From an uncultured Bacteroidales bacterium (GTDB taxonomy: Bacteria > Bacteroidota > Bacteroidia > Bacteroidales > UBA932), in the NCBI GenBank assembly GCA_900317845.1, contig ONII01000005.1, positions 62,001 to 126,000 of the forward strand: DNA of 64,000 bases. Reading direction: 5' to 3'. A program made the translations under genes and the position numbers. Of this stretch, positions 12,177 through 50,973 are shown piece after piece. Below the pieces are notes generated by a model. That model saw only the letters and a program-made list of their open reading frames with translations, made no database searches and was not told the origin of the DNA. The first letter of the stretch is position 1. Each line of letters begins with the position of its first letter.

Positions 12177-13355
12177 TTACCCCACCAGCCACTTGCCCAC
12201 GCGGGGAATGCGTTGAAGGAGGATGCTCACGAGGCCCACCACAACAAAGGCAGAGAAGGCTGTAGCGAGAACCTCCACAGGGGTGGTCCAGGCGCCCAGG
12301 AGGCCGTCAGGACCCACACCCAGCCAGCCGCGATAAAAGGCGGAGAAGGGCGCCAGGACCAGCATGTGCATGAGGTACATGCCGTAACCGGCCTTGGAGA
12401 GGGGAAGGAGGATGTGCCGATAGAAAGGAGATTCTTCGCTACGCTCAGAATGACAAGACCGGAAGGCCAGGGTGAGGCCCACCGTGGTGAGGACCACGGG
12501 AAGGCCGCAGAAGGCCAGCGGGTTTTCCCAGAAGACGGCTGTAGCGAGCGGACCGGTGAGTGGGAAAGCGTCCCCCGCCTGGGAAATATGCCCCAACACG
12601 CTGCTGAACAGCGCCAGAAAACCCATCAGAAACATACTCCAGCCCAGAAAACGCGTCCAGCGGTTGTTGGACAGGAACCTGCGCAGATACAACCCCACCA
12701 GCAGATACCCTACAAAACCGCTCACATAATAGAACAGGCCGAAAGGATTCCAGGCTGCCTCTCCCCACAGGGGGAACAGCGCCTGTGCAGGCAACCCGTC
12801 CGCAGCCTGGATAAGGGGCGCCTCTCCCCCGGCCCACTCCCGGATAAAGGGAATGAGCGTGGTAAAAAGCCAGATGCCCAGGTATACCTCCAACTCCCTC
12901 CGGGACACTTTTTCCGCCCAGGGGGAAAGCAGCGGCATCACAAGATAAAGGCCGATCAGCATGTACACAAACCACAAATGTCCGGCCGCATAGTTGAAGT
13001 TAAGCAGAAGACCCTTCAGGTTGGCCACCGGCTCTCCCCATACAAGGGCATACACCAGCGTCCAGAAGGCCATCGGCACCAGAACGCGCACCGCGCGGCG
13101 CCTGAAAAACTCCCCGGTGGAATAATGCAGCGGAAACTGTAAATAACTGGAGGCGACGACAAACAGCGGCACACAGCAGCGGCACAGCGCCTCAAAGGCC
13201 GACACCCAGAAGGCATCGGTGGCCGTTGCCATCCGTGCACCTTCCTCACAGATATAAAAAGGCTCGGTCCCATGGACCACCATCACCATAAAACACGCGG
13301 TCACCCGCAAATAATCCAGCCAGATTTCCCGTTTCACGCCCATTGATCGTGACAT
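12177..13355 (-). CDS. Acyltransferase family 3 membrane protein
   Basis: 392 residues, about ten membrane helices. It opens with REIWLDYLRVTACFMVMVVHG, the typical start of acyltransferase-3 proteins with the conserved Arg and His. Members O-acylate sugars, lipids or peptides; the substrate here is unknown. Residues about 300-309 (CHSERSEES) are the translation of a dispersed repeat (12429-12455) sitting between two late helices, so this loop is probably of repeat origin. Monocistronic by position; the upstream region holds a 15-bp hairpin at 13384-13420. The start could also be the fifth codon (ATG, MGVKR). Confidence 0.8.
   Translation of the reverse strand: MSRSMGVKREIWLDYLRVTACFMVMVVHGTEPFYICEEGARMATATDAFWVSAFEALCRCCVPLFVVASSYLQFPLHYSTGEFFRRRAVRVLVPMAFWTLVYALVWGEPVANLKGLLLNFNYAAGHLWFVYMLIGLYLVMPLLSPWAEKVSRRELEVYLGIWLFTTLIPFIREWAGGEAPLIQAADGLPAQALFPLWGEAAWNPFGLFYYVSGFVGYLLVGLYLRRFLSNNRWTRFLGWSMFLMGFLALFSSVLGHISQAGDAFPLTGPLATAVFWENPLAFCGLPVVLTTVGLTLAFRSCHSERSEESPFYRHILLPLSKAGYGMYLMHMLVLAPFSAFYRGWLGVGPDGLLGAWTTPVEVLATAFSAFVVVGLVSILLQRIPRVGKWLVG
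12429..12455 (-). repeat. Dispersed short repeat inside the acyltransferase gene (copy 2)
   Basis: On the minus strand the copy reads TGTCATTCTGAGCG then TAGCGAAGAATCT, nearly the same as 7043-7069. It is in frame and translates as CHSERSEES within an otherwise hydrophobic protein. Confidence 0.75.
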
Positions 13356-13383
13356 CTAATTACTTGTTTATCAATAACTTCTT

Positions 13384-13420
13384 GTATAATCCTCGTTCAA
13401 AATTCGAACGAGAATTATAC
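13384..13420. promoter_or_regulatory. 15-bp inverted repeat upstream of the acyltransferase
   Basis: GTATAATCCTCGTTC and GAACGAGAATTATAC pair with one mismatch around a 7-base loop. It lies 29 bases upstream of the acyltransferase start and downstream of birA. There is no T-run on either side, so an operator is as likely as a terminator. Its outer GTATAAT/ATTATAC halves match those of the hipB operator palindrome. Confidence 0.45.
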
Positions 13421-13460
13421 TATAAAACATTCTATTTCAATACTTTAGCAATCACGACTT

Positions 13461-44538: not shown

Positions 44539-45429
44539 ATGCGGGTAGAGACCATCACATCGGCCCAAAATCCGAAGATTAAAAATCTGCTCCTGCTGCA
44601 GGAAAAATCCAAAGCGCGGCGGGAGCAGGGACTTTTTGTGGTGGAAGGCGTGCGGGAGCTCTCGCACTGCCTGGAGGCCGGTTACACCCTGCGCACGCTG
44701 TTCGTTTGCCCGGAGATCACAGGGACATCGGCCCTTGATTTTGGGGGCTCTGCAGAAAATTATTTTTTGTGCAGTAGCTCAAAAAACCAATTTTCTGCAG
44801 AGCAGCATCTGCCTCCGGCCGAACTTTCTGTCATTTCGAGCGAAGCCGAGAAATCTTTAGTCGTGGAGCTTCCGGAGCAGCTTTACCGGAAGGTGGCTTA
44901 CCGGGAAAGCACAGAGGGCATTCTCGCAGAGGTGGAGTATAAAACGCTCGGACTCAAGGATTTGCAGCTTCCGGAGAATCCGCTTATCATGGTGCTGGAG
45001 AGCGTGGAGAAGCCCGGTAACCTGGGCGCAGTGCTCAGAAGCGCCGACGCCGCCAAGGCAGACGCCGTCCTTATCTGCGACCCGCTCACGGACTTGTACA
45101 ACCCCAACCTCATCCGGGCTTCCATCGGCGCGGTATTCACCGTTCCCACCGTGGCGGTATCGTCAGAGGAAGCCATCGCCTTCCTGCAAGCGCGTGATAT
45201 TCAGATTCTTACCGCCCAGCTGCAGGATTCTTCACTGTACTACGATGTGGACATGAAGCGCGGCACGGCGCTGGTGATGGGTACGGAATCCACCGGCCTC
45301 ACTCCCCTGTGGCGCAAGGCGGCAACCTCCCACATCCGCATCCCCATGCTGGGCCGCCTGGACAGCCTCAACGTCTCCGTGAGCGCCGCCATCCTCCTGT
45401 TCGAAGCCGTTCGCCAACGGCAGGGGTAG
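44539..45429 (+). CDS. SpoU/TrmH-family rRNA 2'-O-methyltransferase with repeat-derived insertion
   Basis: 296 residues. The N-terminal substrate-binding domain (1-65) starts ITSAQNPKIKNLLLLQEKSK. The SPOUT domain has EKPGNLGAVLRSADA, LVMGTESTGL and RIPMLGRLDSLNVSVS. Both are intact. Between them residues about 69-107 are not family-like. They are the translation of a 57-base hairpin (44747-44803) and a dispersed repeat (44829-44856, VISSEAEKS). The reading frame is kept through both. The enzyme methylates a ribose in rRNA or tRNA using SAM. The insertion lies in a domain linker, where it may be tolerated. Confidence 0.85.
   Translation: MRVETITSAQNPKIKNLLLLQEKSKARREQGLFVVEGVRELSHCLEAGYTLRTLFVCPEITGTSALDFGGSAENYFLCSSSKNQFSAEQHLPPAELSVISSEAEKSLVVELPEQLYRKVAYRESTEGILAEVEYKTLGLKDLQLPENPLIMVLESVEKPGNLGAVLRSADAAKADAVLICDPLTDLYNPNLIRASIGAVFTVPTVAVSSEEAIAFLQARDIQILTAQLQDSSLYYDVDMKRGTALVMGTESTGLTPLWRKAATSHIRIPMLGRLDSLNVSVSAAILLFEAVRQRQG
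44747..44803 (+). repeat. Hairpin insertion inside the methyltransferase gene
   Basis: A perfect 15-bp inverted repeat (GCTCTGCAGAAAATT at 44747-44761, complement at 44789-44803) encloses 27 bases. Within these TTTTTTG and CAAAAAA pair again. The total is 57 bases, a multiple of three. Confidence 0.8.
44829..44856 (+). repeat. Dispersed short repeat inside the methyltransferase gene (copy 5)
   Basis: TGTCATTTCGAGCGAAG followed by CCGAGAAATCT, the same family as copies 1-4, translated in frame as VISSEAEKS. Confidence 0.78.
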
Positions 45430-45457
45430 CGCCATTTCAGGCCAGCACAAGCCGCCC

Positions 45458-45560
45458 GTGGAGCGAAGTGCTTGATTCATAGCAATTTACGTAAGATGAC
45501 TTACCCGGTTCGGGATAAGTCATTTTACATAACGTGCCGATAATCAGCGGTTTATCTCCA
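45458..45560 (-). repeat. REP/REPIN-like element, copy A (3' flank of RAYT)
   Basis: From GTGGAGCGAAGTGCTTG to TTATCTCCAT. The centre has AAGATGACTTACCC and GGATAAGTCATTTTAC as imperfect inverted arms. It shares ends and core with 46585-46692 and 50784-50887. Confidence 0.85.
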
Positions 45561-45565
45561 TGCGG

Positions 45566-46495
45566 CTACTCGGGGATAGAGAGGGGCAGGTGCAGAAAGG
45601 CTGCGATTTGCTTGGACATAGCTGTTGTTTGTCGCCGAAGCAACTGGAAAAGTTCCGTTTTCTTCGGCGTGGGCAGGGAGAGAATTTCATGAAGGTCTGT
45701 GAATTGGCCCGTTTGTCGGATTGCTCTGCGCATGGTGGCATATACGGCATCGGACTTGCCGACAAAGACCTCGTTCAAGTCATACTCGCTTCCCGTATTT
45801 GCATGAGCCGCAATGAGTTCCTCTTCGTAGGAGCCAAAAAACCGAATTGCTTCCTTATGGCCAATGACCGAGTAAGTTGTGATGATATAATCGGTGAGTT
45901 GATTGCGTTCCCGGTCGTCGGGAAGGGAATCAAAAAGACGCCGGAGCAGGTTGTAATTCATGGGAAGTCCGCCTTTGTGTTGTGCCTGAACGGTTTTCAG
46001 GGCACGTCGAAGGGGCATGGATGCTTCTCTGAGAATAATCTTGTCAGAAAAAGGGTGGTCACTGTTGCCATAGGCCAGAAAGTTCCATTGATAGTCCTCG
46101 GCCTTTTGCACAAGTTGCCGCTCCTGCGGGTTGTTGTCCAGGTAGAGCAGAATGGTCCGGGCTTTTTTTGCTCCCACTTTAGGGACGCTTTGGAAAGGAT
46201 GTTCAAACAAAGGGCCTTTGAGTCCCCATCGTTTGTTATACATATTGGCAAAACGGCTGGCATAGTCATGGCAGAATGCCGACAATTCCCCCGATGCCAG
46301 TTCAACCGTTGCATGGTGTATGTGATCTGGCATTTGGACCAGTTTGAGCACCTTAACCTTGTGTTTGGATGCGCAGATGCAGAATGTGGTAAAGAATACC
46401 AAATGATCACTGACTGAATAAAAAAGAACGCCCCGGTCCTCCAGCCTTTGGTAGCAGTGATTGATGATGTCTTTGTAAACTTTTCTTTTTTTCAT
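45566..46495 (-). CDS. REP-associated tyrosine transposase (RAYT, Y1/HUH type)
   Basis: 309 residues from the ATG at 46495; ATG at 46525 is an alternative. The HUH motif is QMPDHIHHAT (His58, His60). RAYT-type context follows in NKRWGLKGPLFEHPFQS and ILLYLDNNPQ, where Tyr118 is the candidate nucleophile. The C-terminal ~140 residues look helical, with a possible helix-turn-helix around HKEAIRFFGSYEEEL. RAYTs are single-copy IS200/IS605 relatives that bind REP hairpins. Here REP-like elements lie directly on both sides. It may mobilise or maintain these repeats without moving itself. Confidence 0.87.
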   Translation of the reverse strand: MKKRKVYKDIINHCYQRLEDRGVLFYSVSDHLVFFTTFCICASKHKVKVLKLVQMPDHIHHATVELASGELSAFCHDYASRFANMYNKRWGLKGPLFEHPFQSVPKVGAKKARTILLYLDNNPQERQLVQKAEDYQWNFLAYGNSDHPFSDKIILREASMPLRRALKTVQAQHKGGLPMNYNLLRRLFDSLPDDRERNQLTDYIITTYSVIGHKEAIRFFGSYEEELIAAHANTGSEYDLNEVFVGKSDAVYATMRRAIRQTGQFTDLHEILSLPTPKKTELFQLLRRQTTAMSKQIAAFLHLPLSIPE

Positions 46496-46584
46496 ACAGA
46501 CAGTGCATAGAGAGAGTTTAAACATTCTCCCATCTCTGTCTGCTGGGTTCAAAGGTCGGTAAAAATTTTGATTTCTCCAAATGC

Positions 46585-46692
46585 GTGGGGCGAAGTGCTT
46601 GATTCATAGCAGGTTACACAAAAAGACTTACTCCGAACCGGATAAGTCATTTTACATAAGATGATGATAATCAGCAAGTTATCTCCACACGG
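46585..46692 (-). repeat. REP/REPIN-like element, copy B (5' flank of RAYT)
   Basis: Starts GTGGGGCGAAGTGCTTG and ends TTATCTCCACACGG, same orientation as copy A. The central arms AAGACTTACTCC and GGATAAGTCATTTT are partly diverged. It includes the region upstream of the RAYT gene. Confidence 0.82.
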
Positions 46693-46752
46693 ACTGGAGA
46701 AGTGCGGGACTTGCGCCAAGGGCGGCGGGGTGCAAGTCACGCCCCCGGATCG

Positions 46753-47226
46753 CTATTTCACCAGATTGATGGCGCCGAAGACGCCCAGGGAGGCGGCGAG
46801 CATGATGGCGCCGGCCAGCAGTACGCCAAGCAGGACAAACAGGACGCTTTTCTTGAAATCCATGTTCAGGATGCTGGCGGCGAGGGTGCCCGTCCAGGCG
46901 CCTGTGCCGGGAATAGGAATGCCCACAAACAGCAGCAGGGCCCAGTAGAGCCCGCGGCCCGCCTTGGCTTCCAGCTTGCGGCCGCCCTTTTCCCCTTTTT
47001 CCAGACACCAGGTGAAAAAGCCGCCGATCACCTTTTTGTTCTTGCCCCATTCCAGAACCCGGCGGGCAAAGAGGAAAATAAACGGCACCGGCAGCATATT
47101 GCCCACCACCGAAATGATGATGGACGGGACAATAGGAAGGCCCAGGCCCACGGCCACCGGGATGGCGCCCCGAAGCTCGATGAGCGGCACCATGGAAATG
47201 AGGAATATCCAGAGGTATTTTTTCAT
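46753..47226 (-). CDS. Small multidrug export family membrane protein (COG2426-like)
   Basis: 157 residues with about four to five membrane helices. The sequence begins MKKYLWIFLISMVPLIELRG and contains GNMLPVPFIFLFARRVLEW and GIPIPGTGAWTGTLAA, the conserved blocks of the family. The name is historical; transport function is unproven. It lies 6 bases downstream of the PfkB kinase gene and is probably co-transcribed with it. Confidence 0.82.
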   Translation of the reverse strand: MKKYLWIFLISMVPLIELRGAIPVAVGLGLPIVPSIIISVVGNMLPVPFIFLFARRVLEWGKNKKVIGGFFTWCLEKGEKGGRKLEAKAGRGLYWALLLFVGIPIPGTGAWTGTLAASILNMDFKKSVLFVLLGVLLAGAIMLAASLGVFGAINLVK

Positions 47227-47232
47227 GGAAAA

Positions 47233-48231
47233 TCAGGCAGATTGGTTGGCGGCGATAAGGGCACGGATTTCCTCTTTGGCGTCCCGCCAGCGGGGAATGT
47301 CTATTTTGGTGCCGATTACCTCTACCACCTTGGCGGCAATGATGGAGCCAATCTCTCCGCACACGCGCAATGGCATGCCCAGTGAATGGGCGTAGAGAAA
47401 ACCGGCCGCATAGGTGTCTCCGGCACCGGTAGCGTCTATCGGCGTAGCGGGCCAGGGCTCAATGAAATGGTATTCCTCCCCGGACTTGACCATCGACCCG
47501 GCTTTACCTACCTTTACTACGGCAATGTCGCACACGTTTGCGAGCTCGTCAATGGCTGCACGCGGGTCCTTTTTGGTAAAAGCTTTGGCTTCTGACTCAT
47601 TGGCAAAGACAATGTCCACGTAGTTCTCTACCAGGTTGTGGAAGAAGGCGTCGTTGGATTCCACTACATTATAGGAGGCCATGTCGATGGAAATGGTGCA
47701 CCCGGCCTGCTTGGCCAGCCGGGCCGCCTTGGAGATAAGTTCCTGGTTCTGCACCAGATAGCCTTCGATGTGGAAATAGTCGTAGCCTTGGAACTGCTCC
47801 AGCGAAAGGTCCTCCGGTCCCAGTTCCAGCGTGGCGCCCATGTAGTCTGCAAAGGTGCGTTCCGCGTTGGCCCCCGTGATGAACACCATGCATCGGCCGC
47901 TGGACTTTTGGCTGTAGAGCATCTGGGCACGCACGCCGTATTGCTCCATGGTGCTCTTGAACAGGTTACCTAAATCGTCATTGCCGATTTTTCCGAGGAA
48001 GCCGGAAGGCATCCCGAAGATGGCCGTGCAGGTGATGGTGTTGGCCGCCGACCCGCCGGGAACGTATTTGACGCCATAGTCTTTGAGGGCGTCCCAGATG
48101 CGGTCGCCGGTTTCCATGTCCACGTGCTGCATGCTGCCCAGCGGAAGATGGTACTTTTTCAGGAGGCTGTCGTCCGGAAGGACGGCCAGGATGTCTGTAA
48201 GGGCATTGCCAATGCCAAGGATGGATTTCAT
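47233..48231 (-). CDS. PfkB-family carbohydrate/adenosine-type kinase
   Basis: 332 residues from the ATG at 48231. A ribokinase-like fold with the N-terminal GIGNALTDILA and PGGSAANT, and the C-terminal PfkB signature DATGAGDTYAAGFLYAH holding the catalytic Asp. The lid and sequence length fit the adenosine-kinase-like or ribokinase-like branch found in Bacteroidetes. The sugar or nucleoside substrate is not certain. Confidence 0.85.
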   Translation of the reverse strand: MKSILGIGNALTDILAVLPDDSLLKKYHLPLGSMQHVDMETGDRIWDALKDYGVKYVPGGSAANTITCTAIFGMPSGFLGKIGNDDLGNLFKSTMEQYGVRAQMLYSQKSSGRCMVFITGANAERTFADYMGATLELGPEDLSLEQFQGYDYFHIEGYLVQNQELISKAARLAKQAGCTISIDMASYNVVESNDAFFHNLVENYVDIVFANESEAKAFTKKDPRAAIDELANVCDIAVVKVGKAGSMVKSGEEYHFIEPWPATPIDATGAGDTYAAGFLYAHSLGMPLRVCGEIGSIIAAKVVEVIGTKIDIPRWRDAKEEIRALIAANQSA

Positions 48232-48270
48232 ATTCGTCACAGTTACTTACAAAATTAGTCATTTTTTCCG

Positions 48271-48278
48271 TATCTTTG
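48271..48278 (+). promoter_or_regulatory. -7 element of the flippase-like gene
   Basis: TATCTTTG ends 1 base before an ATG at 48280 and 7 bases before the ATG at 48286. The first is too close to be transcribed, which favours 48286 as the start. Confidence 0.65.
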
Positions 48279-48285
48279 CATGCTC

Positions 48286-49293
48286 ATGGATAAGAAAACG
48301 AAAAATATCCTGCGTTCCCTCTTCTGGGTTGCCGTGGCGGTGGTGCTGGTGTACTTCTGTCTGCGCAGCGTGGACTGGGAGCAGTTTATGCTGGCCATGG
48401 AGCAGTGCAGGTGGGAATACGTCATTCTGTCCATGCTCCTGGGGGCGCTGGTGTTCTATGTGCGCGGCAACCGCTGGCGCATGCTCCTGTTGCCCTTCGA
48501 CCCTTCCACTTCCCGCATCACCACGTTCAACGCCTATAACATTTGCATGGCGGTGAACCTGGCCATTCCGCGTGCCGGAGAGGTGGCCAGACTGGGCTAT
48601 GTAGTGGGACATTCGGCCCTGGACAAGGATGGACGGCGGCTGCTTACACTGGACAAAGCGCTGGGAACCCTCCTGATTGAGCGCGTGTGGGACGGCCTGG
48701 TTACCCTGGGCATGGCCGCCGCGCTGGTGGTGCTCATGTGGGAAACATTCGGCGCCTATCTTGTGGAGAGCATGGCCGGTCTGGGCAGCAGCAACGCCCT
48801 CTGGTGGGCGCTGGGCGGCGTAATCGTGTTTATCGGCGCATTCCTCTGGCTCTGCTACTCCTTCCGTGAAAAGGGTGGCCTATGGGGAAAAGTCTGGGGA
48901 TTCATTGCGGGTATCGGCAGCGGCCTCAGCTCGTTCATGCATATGAAGCGCGTATGGCTGTTTTTTGTGTACACAGCCCTTATCTGGCTCATTTACTGGC
49001 TCATGAGCGCCTGCATCGTATGGGCGCTGCAGGATATCGAGGCCTTTTCCCACCTTACCCTGGCCGATGCCTTCTTCCTGATGATTGCCGGCAGTATCAG
49101 TTCTGTGGTGCCGGTGCCGGGCGGCTTCGGGGCCTATCACGGCCTGGTGTGCGGGGCCATGCTCAGCATCTGGAACATACCCGTGGGTACGGGAATGATT
49201 TTCGCCACGCTCAACCATGAGTCGCAGGTGCTTACGCAGGCGCTCTGCGGCCTGGCTTCCTATATCCACGAATCCTTCATCCGCCGCAAATGA
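48286..49293 (+). CDS. Lysylphosphatidylglycerol synthase TM-domain-like (UPF0104) membrane protein
   Basis: 335 residues with eight or nine membrane helices. Family blocks are MLLGALVFYVRGNRWRMLLL, NIPRAGE-like in AVNLAIPRAGEVARLGYVVG, and SSVVPVPGGFGAYHGLV. Proteins with only this domain lack the aminoacyl-transferase part of MprF and are thought to flip or transport lipids or isoprenoid-linked sugars. The gene is coupled to aroE by an ATGA overlap. Confidence 0.82.
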   Translation: MDKKTKNILRSLFWVAVAVVLVYFCLRSVDWEQFMLAMEQCRWEYVILSMLLGALVFYVRGNRWRMLLLPFDPSTSRITTFNAYNICMAVNLAIPRAGEVARLGYVVGHSALDKDGRRLLTLDKALGTLLIERVWDGLVTLGMAAALVVLMWETFGAYLVESMAGLGSSNALWWALGGVIVFIGAFLWLCYSFREKGGLWGKVWGFIAGIGSGLSSFMHMKRVWLFFVYTALIWLIYWLMSACIVWALQDIEAFSHLTLADAFFLMIAGSISSVVPVPGGFGAYHGLVCGAMLSIWNIPVGTGMIFATLNHESQVLTQALCGLASYIHESFIRRK

Positions 49294-50006
49294 AAAAATT
49301 CGCCCTTATCGGCCATCCGGTGGCCGGTTCCCTGAGTCCCGTTCTTATAAAGGCCGCCTATCAGGGCCGATACACTTATGACCTGGTGGACCGCGAGCAC
49401 TTCGAAGAGGCCTGGGACGTATTTGTGCATGAGTACGATGGCATCAATGTCACGGCGCCGTTCAAGCAGGACGCCTTTGCCAAGGTAGACTTTCTGGACC
49501 CGCAGGCGCAGGCTACCGGCGCGGTGAATCTGGTGATTCCGCGTAGCGGCGGGTATGCCGGCTACAACACCGACGTAGATGGCGTGCTGGTGGCGCTACG
49601 GGAAACGGGGCTTTCTTTTGCCGATGCCCTTGTGGTGGGGAACGGCGGGGCGGCACGGGCGGCGGTGTATGCGGCGCGTGCGCTGGGATGCACGGTAACG
49701 GTGTGCGGCCGCTCCGTGGAAAAGGCTGCGGCACTCCGATGCCCGGCCGTGTCGCTTGAAGACGCTTCCCGCCTGCATCCGGACCTTATCATTTATACCC
49801 TCCCCGGGCGGGCGCCGGTGCCGCAGGGCTTGCCGTTTTCCGGAGCTGTCGTGCTGGAGGCGGAGTATCGGATTCCGCAGCTGTCGGCCGGGGATTGCCG
49901 CCTGTACGTGAGCGGACGGCGCTGGATGCTGGGCCAGGCTGTGGCAGGGTATCGGCTCTTCACCGGAGAGGAGCCCGATGTACAGGAAATGTTGCGGGCC
50001 CTGTAA
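49290..50006 (+). CDS. aroE: Shikimate 5-dehydrogenase
   Basis: 238 residues, slightly short for AroE. The substrate site is seen in GHPVAGSLSP and NVTAPFKQDA (catalytic Lys), then GYNTDVDG. The NADP-binding loop is VVGNGGAARAAV. It reduces 3-dehydroshikimate. The C-terminal region ends MLGQAVAGYRLFTG, containing the conserved Gln. It supplies aroK's substrate although the two genes are far apart. Confidence 0.88.
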   Translation: MKKFALIGHPVAGSLSPVLIKAAYQGRYTYDLVDREHFEEAWDVFVHEYDGINVTAPFKQDAFAKVDFLDPQAQATGAVNLVIPRSGGYAGYNTDVDGVLVALRETGLSFADALVVGNGGAARAAVYAARALGCTVTVCGRSVEKAAALRCPAVSLEDASRLHPDLIIYTLPGRAPVPQGLPFSGAVVLEAEYRIPQLSAGDCRLYVSGRRWMLGQAVAGYRLFTGEEPDVQEMLRAL

Positions 50007-50086
50007 CAAATCCCAAAAATATTTTGTAACTTGCAGGTGCGTAGTGGAGCAGGATGCCCGCGCGTAACCTTTTAATTTATTGTATT

Positions 50087-50755
50087 ATGTCACTGAACAA
50101 AGTCATGCTAATCGGTAACGTTGGAAGCGACCCGGAAGTACGTTACCTTGAGAACAACCCCCAGAATCCCGGAAACAACGTAAAAGTGGCCACCGTGCGC
50201 CTGGCCACCACAGAACGCTACAGAGACCGCAACGGCGAGCAGCGGGAAAACACCGAATGGCACACGGTTGTGCTTTGGCGCAACAATGCCGATGTCGCAG
50301 AAAAATACGTGCACAAAGGCTCCCAGATTTACATCGAAGGCAAACTCCGCACCCGCCAGTGGACGGACCAGACCGGCAACAAGCGCTACACCACGGAAGT
50401 GGTGGCAGACACACTGCAGCTGCTGGGAAAACGTCCGGAAGGAGAATCCCAGGCCCAGGGCGGGTATCAGGGCGGCTATGCCCAGGGTGGCCAGCCGGCC
50501 TATCAAGGCCAGGGCGGATATCAGCCGCAGGGCGCTTATCAGCCTCAGGCTCCAGTTCAGTCGCAGTACGCTGCACAGCCCCAGTATGCCGGTCAGCCCG
50601 GCGCCGCTCCGTCGGCCCAAGCTGCGGCGCCTGTCGCCCAACCAGCCGGCCCTGCAGCCCCTGCCGGTGCCCCGTCTCCGGCCGCTCAGCCCGTGAACCC
50701 CGCCTACCAGGGCCCGCTCCCGGCCGCCGAGCCCTCGGACGATCTCCCGTTCTAA
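50087..50755 (+). CDS. ssb: Single-stranded DNA-binding protein
   Basis: 222 residues from the ATG at 50087 (MSLNKVMLIGNVGSDPEVRY). The OB fold occupies 1-115. A long Gln/Gly/Pro/Ala-rich linker (about 125-213) contains repeating GGYQ- and QPQYA-like units. The protein ends DDLPF, the conserved acidic tip that binds partner proteins such as RecJ. The linker is longer than in typical SSB. Single gene, followed by a REPIN copy. Confidence 0.94.
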   Translation: MSLNKVMLIGNVGSDPEVRYLENNPQNPGNNVKVATVRLATTERYRDRNGEQRENTEWHTVVLWRNNADVAEKYVHKGSQIYIEGKLRTRQWTDQTGNKRYTTEVVADTLQLLGKRPEGESQAQGGYQGGYAQGGQPAYQGQGGYQPQGAYQPQAPVQSQYAAQPQYAGQPGAAPSAQAAAPVAQPAGPAAPAGAPSPAAQPVNPAYQGPLPAAEPSDDLPF

Positions 50756-50783
50756 GCCCTGCCCCCTGCCGGGGAGTGGCGTC

Positions 50784-50887
50784 GTGGAGATAAACCGCTG
50801 ATTATCGGCATGTTACGTAAAATGACTTATCCCGAACCGGATAAGTCATTTTACGTAAATTACTATGACTCAAGCACTTCGCTCCAC
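50784..50887 (+). repeat. REPIN-like element, copy C (remote from RAYT)
   Basis: 104 bases starting GTGGAG and ending CTCCAC. The core is a perfect 20-bp inverted repeat (50813-50832 and 50839-50858, arms around TAAAATGACTTATCC) with a 6-base loop. Orientation is opposite to copies A and B. It sits between ssb and the AI-2E-type transporter. Confidence 0.88.
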
Positions 50888-50973
50888 GGATGGGCGGGCG
50901 GGTGTGTCGTCGTCCGGCAATGCAGTGCTGGTCAGGCACAGCGCAGTGAAGCACGGCACAGCGCAGATTGGCT

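Follow-up and report, generated by a model that had tools for sequence, protein, structure and literature searches.

A probable RAYT/REPIN-type system with several families of palindromic elements in an uncultured Bacteroidales bacterium

The sequence analysed here comprises 64,000 nucleotides from an uncultured Bacteroidales bacterium (assembly GCA_900317845.1, contig ONII01000005.1, positions 62,001 to 126,000; hereafter the window). It contains a gene for a protein resembling the REP-associated tyrosine transposases (RAYT; REP, repetitive extragenic palindromic sequence), framed by two palindromic elements of about 110 nt, and a third, inverted copy of the element farther away. The locus raises the question whether gene and palindromes belong together, as do RAYTs and REP doublets forming hairpins (REPINs), and how the third copy came to its place. 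Very probably, the locus represents a RAYT/REPIN-type system operating by the mechanism proposed below. The original prediction of a Bacteroidales RAYT/REPIN pair was supported, with two revisions: its three copies of a single repeat were replaced by several families specific for individual RAYTs, and the place of the third copy is explained by an inverted block between elements 1 and 3.

Architecture of the elements and pairing with RAYT genes

The HUH-type gene (45566-46495) with one palindrome on each side in the same orientation was located as claimed originally; its reading frame starts with ATG at 46495 and is open to the stop at 45566. The third copy (full extent 50781-50890) was likewise found inverted, about 4 kb off (4.1 kb from element 2) and with a perfect 20-bp core stem (50813-50832/50839-50858). 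Elements 1 and 2 are 81% identical without gaps in the same orientation, and elements 1 and 3 are 91% complementary over 116 nt; gapped pairwise identities were 0.91 (elements 1/3), 0.79 (1/2) and 0.77 (2/3). The ends of this family, termed family A, are 5' CGTGGAG and 3' CTCCACG. They fit the 'double foot' REP in the sections of PMC6006769 cited here, and the earlier statement that the repeats share no sequence with the classical REP was too strong.

RAYT homologs were detected in 92 of 151 genomes of the same genus (own genome included), with at most nine in one genome. The best 90 of more than 150 homolog matches were taken. A set of 95 RAYT loci was formed from these together with L049, L053-L056 and L012; L050-L052, L057, L058 and L097 were left out as cut, duplicate or remote (the L097 gene sits in L012). 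An element was present within 650 bp of 87 of the 95 genes, on both sides in 48 cases and on one side in 39. By genome, both RAYT and elements were found in 88, RAYT only in 4, elements only in 22 and neither in 37 (n=151; Fisher 1.6e-15, not to be taken literally because the genomes are related and partly incomplete). The elements were therefore not equally common in genomes with a RAYT match (88/92) and without one (22/59).

Upstream and downstream flanks were compared in the 91 homolog loci that have both; relative to 1,092 mismatched pairs, their similarity lay above the 99% point in 50 loci and above the 95% point in 57. One mononucleotide shuffle was made per flank, and 104 of 186 flanks surpassed the best of their shuffle in palindromy. 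The flank palindromes comprised 81 elements, of which 53 measured 85-145 nt; those of 100-122 nt that scored at least 16 (35 elements) were used, cropped to 110 nt around the core and, after L044U had been dropped, aligned. The resulting 34 elements align nearly gap-free with constant spacing from box to core; because they were selected by length and cropped, the alignment speaks for constant spacing, not for uniform length.

Each half-unit consists of an end box with CGT, TAA, 4 free bases, YTGATTATCAR, 4 free bases, TTA and the core-stem arm, and most information lies in TAA, TTA and the YT/AR borders. The inner boxes are common to all families. Ends and core differ between the families, of which the own genome has at least four, the feet of the other families being GTGA, CTGG or GTAA. 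Named pair cells formed pairs in 82.5% of cases versus 58.0% after shuffling, and 37 of 40 pairs varied on both sides (covariation 0.657 versus 0.208 shuffled and at most 0.183 slid). Two small inner hairpins were 74.5 and 69.6% paired. Since the elements had been found by palindromy, these statistics are partly circular, to a greater extent for the outer and core stems than for the inner hairpins. Like REPINs, the elements consist of two inverted units with a spacer and are foldable as a hairpin; they have two-fold symmetry and inner half palindromes. An Rfam scan of the window yielded no family for the elements and one chance match elsewhere.

Similarity of the element core followed RAYT identity. 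Over 3,354 between-genome pairs from 83 loci, it rose from 0.48 (RAYT identity below 40%) to 0.78 (70% or more, 17 pairs), with a Mantel r of 0.32 (p 0.001; largest of 999 permutations 0.16). In the own genome, 52 of 80 elements belong to the CGTTC family and are accompanied by a CGTTC-flanked RAYT; the sister genome G005 holds mostly CGGC elements and a CGGC-flanked RAYT. At the level of sequence, association, architecture and family specificity are evident, and ends and core appear matched to individual RAYTs.

On the side of the protein, H58, H60, Y118, N121, N122 and W137 are invariant in 95 of 95 homologs. By analogy, H58, H60 and Y118 would provide the HUH motif and one catalytic tyrosine. 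The motifs of the window protein are DHIH (D in 88/95 homologs) and YLDNNP. The models Y1_Tnp and REP_Tyr_transpos were each matched by 17 of 17 diverse family members at E <=1, and the REP-associated transposase model was the best NCBIfam match (top member E 1.9e-13, 17 scanned). In a profile search, solved transposases, which we take to be of the IS200 type, were matched at E 0.007-0.03; the match to E. coli TnpAREP (4er8) was weak (E 0.35). An order-wide profile search of 295 genomes (183 genera) gave matches in 41 others at E 9e-11 to 5e-25, all confined to profile positions 1-182, with full-length matches in the own genome only; one further same-genus genome within this set had no RAYT profile match. 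Eight of ten named homolog matches came from Bacteroidales/Bacteroidia bins, several of them rumen-derived, and two weak ones from elsewhere. Among the loci taken, RAYT paralogs within one genome were at most 78.8% identical (56 pairs), i.e. there were no near-identical gene copies, and the gene behaves as a single copy, unlike a multiplying insertion sequence.

Apart from the two close RAYTs of the own genome (window and C32:58603-59511), distant Y1 genes were noted. One of them (C25:62864-65622, L015) has tandem hairpin units of about 51 nt on both sides in inverted orientation, and this hairpin stretch as query gave 19 genome matches, some overlapping; gene and hairpins may form a separate RAYT-like pair. 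A third, distant Y1-like gene (C29:7435-7632, L013) has no obvious flanking repeats. Beside the second RAYT locus, three tandem repeats with 56-nt spacing were observed (L012 639-807).

Copies, families and shared sites

Further copies of the element exist in the genome. A plain sequence search of the 2.4-Mb assembly gave one (C15:33964-34069, 71% over 106 nt) and was rejected as a copy count; its total of four is misleading. Because the families share few exact bases, such a search nearly yields the answer that there are no further copies. With a covariance model (34 rows, one from the own genome; E-values rough), 149 strand matches were obtained, corresponding to at least 80 distinct places and nearly all of full length. 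E was <=0.001 for 79 of the 80; 77 were 109-111 nt long, 48 of the 80 being 111 nt. Scoring covered 150 of 554 candidates in the own genome and 150 of 541 in G005, and the counts of 80 and 77, respectively, are therefore lower bounds.

By core patterns that we defined, the 80 elements were assigned to the families CGTTC (52), CGGC (8), GTAAAATG/AAATCGTCTATG (8) and family A (4); one was a CGTTC/CGGC hybrid, and 7 were other or unclear. The RAYT at C32:58603-59511 is framed by CGTTC elements. For the GTAAAATG family no RAYT was found in the own genome (assembly 97.75% complete), and elements of this family flank RAYTs in other genomes (L027, L069, L072). Elements were present in 110 of 151 same-genus genomes at E 1e-3 (up to 25 candidates scored per genome). 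With up to 13 candidates scored per genome, none of the 294 other genomes of the order-wide set (295 genomes, 183 genera) reached E 1e-4, leaving the own genome only; filters were strict and both strands were counted in both searches.

As to the position of elements relative to genes, 12 of the 79 own elements are situated in a reading frame that stays open for at least 90 nt on both sides; such frames may be due to chance. One element seems to be located within an open gene, at C34:13949-14058 (L139) and, with similar surroundings on both sides, at G005 C1:19653-19762 (L241).

G005 is 95.3% identical to the own genome across 4,039 bp of the window block. At least 77 distinct elements were listed for it, 62 of 109 nt and none of 111 nt. 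Sequences were available for 56 of the 77: 42 were scored as having at least one half of the CGGC type and none of the CGTTC type, one was a hybrid, and none was pure CGTTC. A flank matching that of an own element (>=85% over >=70 bases) was found for 30 of the 56. In 26 of these a CGGC element faces a CGTTC element, in two CGGC faces one same CGGC element, and in two GTAAAATG faces GTAAAATG. The 26 pairs touch 24 own elements, two of which rest on matches of 75-76 bases; some of the G005 elements are tandem neighbours. At some sites (C178:737) the flanks stay alike up to a few bases from the edge of the element, and at other shared sites the adjoining bases have changed too. Between the facing elements of 17 pairs, similarity was 0.592 versus 0.588 (sd 0.030) for random CGGC/CGTTC pairs. 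A fast clock in all elements is not favoured, as the two same-family shared sites, one with a changed half, keep identities of 0.79 and 0.85.

The RAYTs at the locus shared between C32 of the own genome and C18 of G005 are 72.5% identical, against 86.5% and 83.5% to the RAYTs of G037 and G038, for which the one compared flank indicates the same place; the gene has opposite orientation between its elements in the two genomes. Observations bearing on a possible mobility of the doublet are presence or absence and family differences at shared sites. G005 was considered as an empty site for the window locus and rejected: in its assembly the place of the RAYT consists of a run of N, and the position of element 3 (at ssb) coincides with the contig end.

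Half exchange, inversion and alternative explanations

The 104 halves of CGTTC elements (5,356 pairs) have a mean identity of 0.60 and a 99.9% point of 0.92. Five half pairs were 0.91-1.00 identical while their partner halves reached 0.45-0.77, and one element pair (C28:148654/154288) was alike over its whole length. The element at C34:13949 and its counterpart in G005 share the left half (0.91) more closely than the right (0.67). Hybrids of one CGTTC and one CGGC half occur at C30:47701-47809 of the own genome and at C141:311-419 of G005.

Seven relatives (G028, G077, G140, G141, G038, G148 and G126) have the standard order lysS, trmH, then ssb, aroE, flippase-like gene, kinase and membrane-protein gene. 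In the window, the part from the membrane-protein gene to ssb is reversed relative to these seven. G005 has the same reversed block, and G122, G133 and the named contig L049 are reversed as well, each judged at one junction. G077 shows the predicted earlier state: trmH and ssb are separated by an element, and the far end of the block (next gene beyond this end not identified) carries element-RAYT-element. The junction of ssb with its downstream region carries an element in all four readable inverted cases (window, L049, G122, G133). Among the seven standard genomes, two have an element at the trmH/ssb junction and two at the opposite one, and the sites are therefore often empty.

Comparison of the halves of elements 1 and 3 gave 0.90 for the trmH-facing versus the AI-2E-facing half, 0.90 for the RAYT-facing versus the ssb-facing half, and 0.63-0.67 for the cross-comparisons; the two are therefore directional elements in inverted orientation. 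The block bounded by elements 1 and 3 has the reverse orientation compared with the relatives; this accounts for the remote and inverted position of element 3, which fits a 5.2-kb inversion between these two elements. Further inversion-like flank patterns between two elements were found at C32:119016-123762, C38:62277-64686 and C24:3942-5679. Family differences at shared sites, mosaics and inversions are thus apparent from comparison of the genomes. The block is rearranged in yet another way in L025 (G125) and L053 (RUG722), where the RAYT sits immediately upstream of ssb.

In the mechanism that we propose, the RAYT would be an HUH nuclease with a single tyrosine whose probable substrate is the element of two inverted half-units. 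Half-units folded in single-stranded DNA would be recognised, cleaved and joined again by this enzyme, and elements or halves would enter sites already holding elements. If this holds, RAYT-assisted exchange of half-units would lead to mosaics, to family replacement at fixed sites and to inversion between elements; inversion between elements 1 and 3 would have carried element 3 away from the RAYT. We infer cleavage, mobility, the direction of replacement and the RAYT as agent of exchange. A more far-reaching version is put forward tentatively: a swap of the RAYT recognition code might have led to the whole palindrome population being overwritten at the same sites, with the half-element as exchange unit and RAYT-driven flips. 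The case behind it is the set of CGGC elements and RAYT in G005 versus CGTTC elements and RAYT here, with flanks 85-99% identical. If true, this would be a genome-wide, evolving system of inversion and site replacement.

Several observations weigh against the proposed system. Within 650 bp, no element accompanies 8 of the 95 RAYT genes, and a further 39 are flanked on a single side. Of the 59 genomes lacking a RAYT match, 22 contain elements; a profile search of these 22 revealed distant Y1 genes in 15, and the other 7 gave no match at E 0.001. The 15 carry little weight because the own genome also has distant Y1 genes; the 7 speak against a strict coupling of gene and elements. The outer ends follow the RAYT weakly (Mantel r 0.15, p 0.001; rank correlation 0.07). 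The window protein matched only Y1_Tnp (PF01797) in the Pfam scan, with 18.7 bits versus a cut-off of 23, and only REP_Tyr_transpos (NF047646) in the NCBIfam scan, with 35.2 bits versus 80. Such curated cut-offs are naming thresholds and describe no biochemical feature; membership in RAYT/TnpAREP is not excluded by them. The predicted structure of the protein was poor (mean pLDDT, i.e. predicted local distance difference test, 52). No sign of cleavage or excision and no clean empty site was seen in the genomes compared. A recent copying burst as source of the CGTTC family is not favoured at about 60% identity of the halves. Finally, plain recombination between inverted repeats is a good alternative for the window inversion itself.

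Extended to all inversions and to half exchange, ordinary homologous recombination between repeats without any role of the RAYT is the alternative that survives best, and we consider it possible though unlikely. Elements 1 and 3 are inverted repeats of about 110 bp with 91% identity, and an identical 44-nt half is present in both elements bounding the C38 inversion, as recombination would have it; halves of CGTTC elements at their average identity offer it little, and family replacement left no residual similarity above that of random pairs. Very improbable is an origin of the palindromes as host elements, such as bidirectional terminators or mRNA-stability hairpins, which the RAYT uses or among which it sits. 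Their strong stem-loops, the place of element 3 and of elements of some relatives directly downstream of ssb, and the 7 element-bearing genomes without RAYT profile match would suit such a role, but element family tracks the RAYT between sister genomes and across the genus, a terminator does not need conserved boxes at constant spacing, and the elements are absent from the 294 other order genomes at the threshold and scoring depth given above. A true insertion sequence of the IS200/IS605 type, with the flanking elements as left and right ends that move with the gene, is more improbable still: the HUH/Y1 relationship, the 48 loci with elements on both sides and the position of close relatives of the window RAYT at different ends of the same gene block are outweighed by the lack of near-identical copies of the gene in any one genome among the loci taken, by the excess of elements over genes (at least 80 versus 2 close RAYTs) and by the lack of a TnpB-like open reading frame beside the gene, as judged by eye.

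The coordinates of the locus and its neighbours are given in Table 1. The block between elements 1 and 3 contains the RAYT, element 2, a small membrane protein, a sugar kinase, a flippase-like protein, aroE and ssb. The names trmH, lysS, aroE, ssb, sugar kinase, flippase-like, AI-2E and threonine aldolase were given by eye with no family search, as was 'dedA' for the small membrane protein.

Table 1. Features of the RAYT locus and related elements in the window
Feature	Position	Strand	Remarks
RAYT-like HUH/Y1 transposase gene, 309 aa	45566..46495	-	HUH H58/H60, tyrosine Y118
Element 1, family A	45455..45564	-	between trmH-like gene and RAYT 3' end; 77.9 bits
Element 2, family A	46582..46691	-	upstream of RAYT; orientation as element 1; 70.9 bits
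Element 3, family A	50781..50890	+	inverted, downstream of ssb; perfect 20-bp core stem; 81.1 bits
5.2-kb block between inverted elements 1 and 3	45566..50780	.	gene order compared with relatives
ssb	50087..50755	+	synteny anchor
trmH-like rRNA methyltransferase gene	44539..45429	+	left neighbour of element 1
Solitary CGTTC-family element	13347..13457	-	58.7 bits; likely RAYT on another contig (C32:58603-59511)

Comparison with known systems

The large set of enzymes with their palindromes, and two closely related genomes in which different pairs are in use, provide natural matched experiments. These address which part of the palindrome is read by the enzyme, and whether the elements undergo copying, conversion or a swap of halves. 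A source of small inversions in this Bacteroidales group is indicated as well. For Bacteroidales, the searches of open-licence full texts yielded no account of palindrome families specific for individual RAYTs, of one family replacing another site by site, or of inversions. Bacteroidetes RAYTs with 'atypical secondary structures' copied in the genome are already in print (PMC6006769, in the sections cited, as for all sources below).

IS200/IS605 elements (IS608) resemble the window system in HUH/Y1 chemistry, by homology, and differ in that here no recent gene duplicates occur among the loci taken and solitary elements are in excess. Among the TnpAREP subclasses, 2.6 (Bertels group 5) was described for Bacteroidetes with proteins of 179 aa and the motifs NH[LIV]H and YIH[QN]NP (PMC6006769). 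It shares with the window system the phylum and genes flanked by 'atypical secondary structures' with genome copies, and the published description is set apart from the protein found here by 309 aa, DHIH and YLDNNP. Subclass 2.4 (Bertels group 4) has NH[IFV]H, YIxNNP and the 'double foot' REP (PMC6006769). Its 5' GT[AG]G and 3' C[TC]AC on one palindrome are fitted by family A and its Y motif is close, whereas DHIH and the other feet of the other families differ (PMC6006769). By sequence, the window system has the features that define the RAYT group and departs from the published motifs of the Bacteroidetes subclasses (PMC6006769).

The closest likeness is with RAYT/TnpAREP and REP/REPIN of Pseudomonas, E. 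coli and Stenotrophomonas, in which an HUH/Y1 protein likewise has its own repeat family and flanking repeats, inverted doublets with a structured spacer occur, and coevolution of gene and repeat was proposed (PMC3116915, PMC8266576, PMC6006769). REPINs are defined as inverted REP doublets, and the window elements are built alike (PMC3116915); REP dimers were also described in PMC3733652. Compared with these systems, the one found here has a unit of 109-111 nt with an inner small palindrome box and a family-specific core, few exact repeats, a 309-aa protein with a long C-terminal part, and many paralogous RAYTs in one genus, each with its own family. It is a new variant of the RAYT/REPIN type, found here in one genus.

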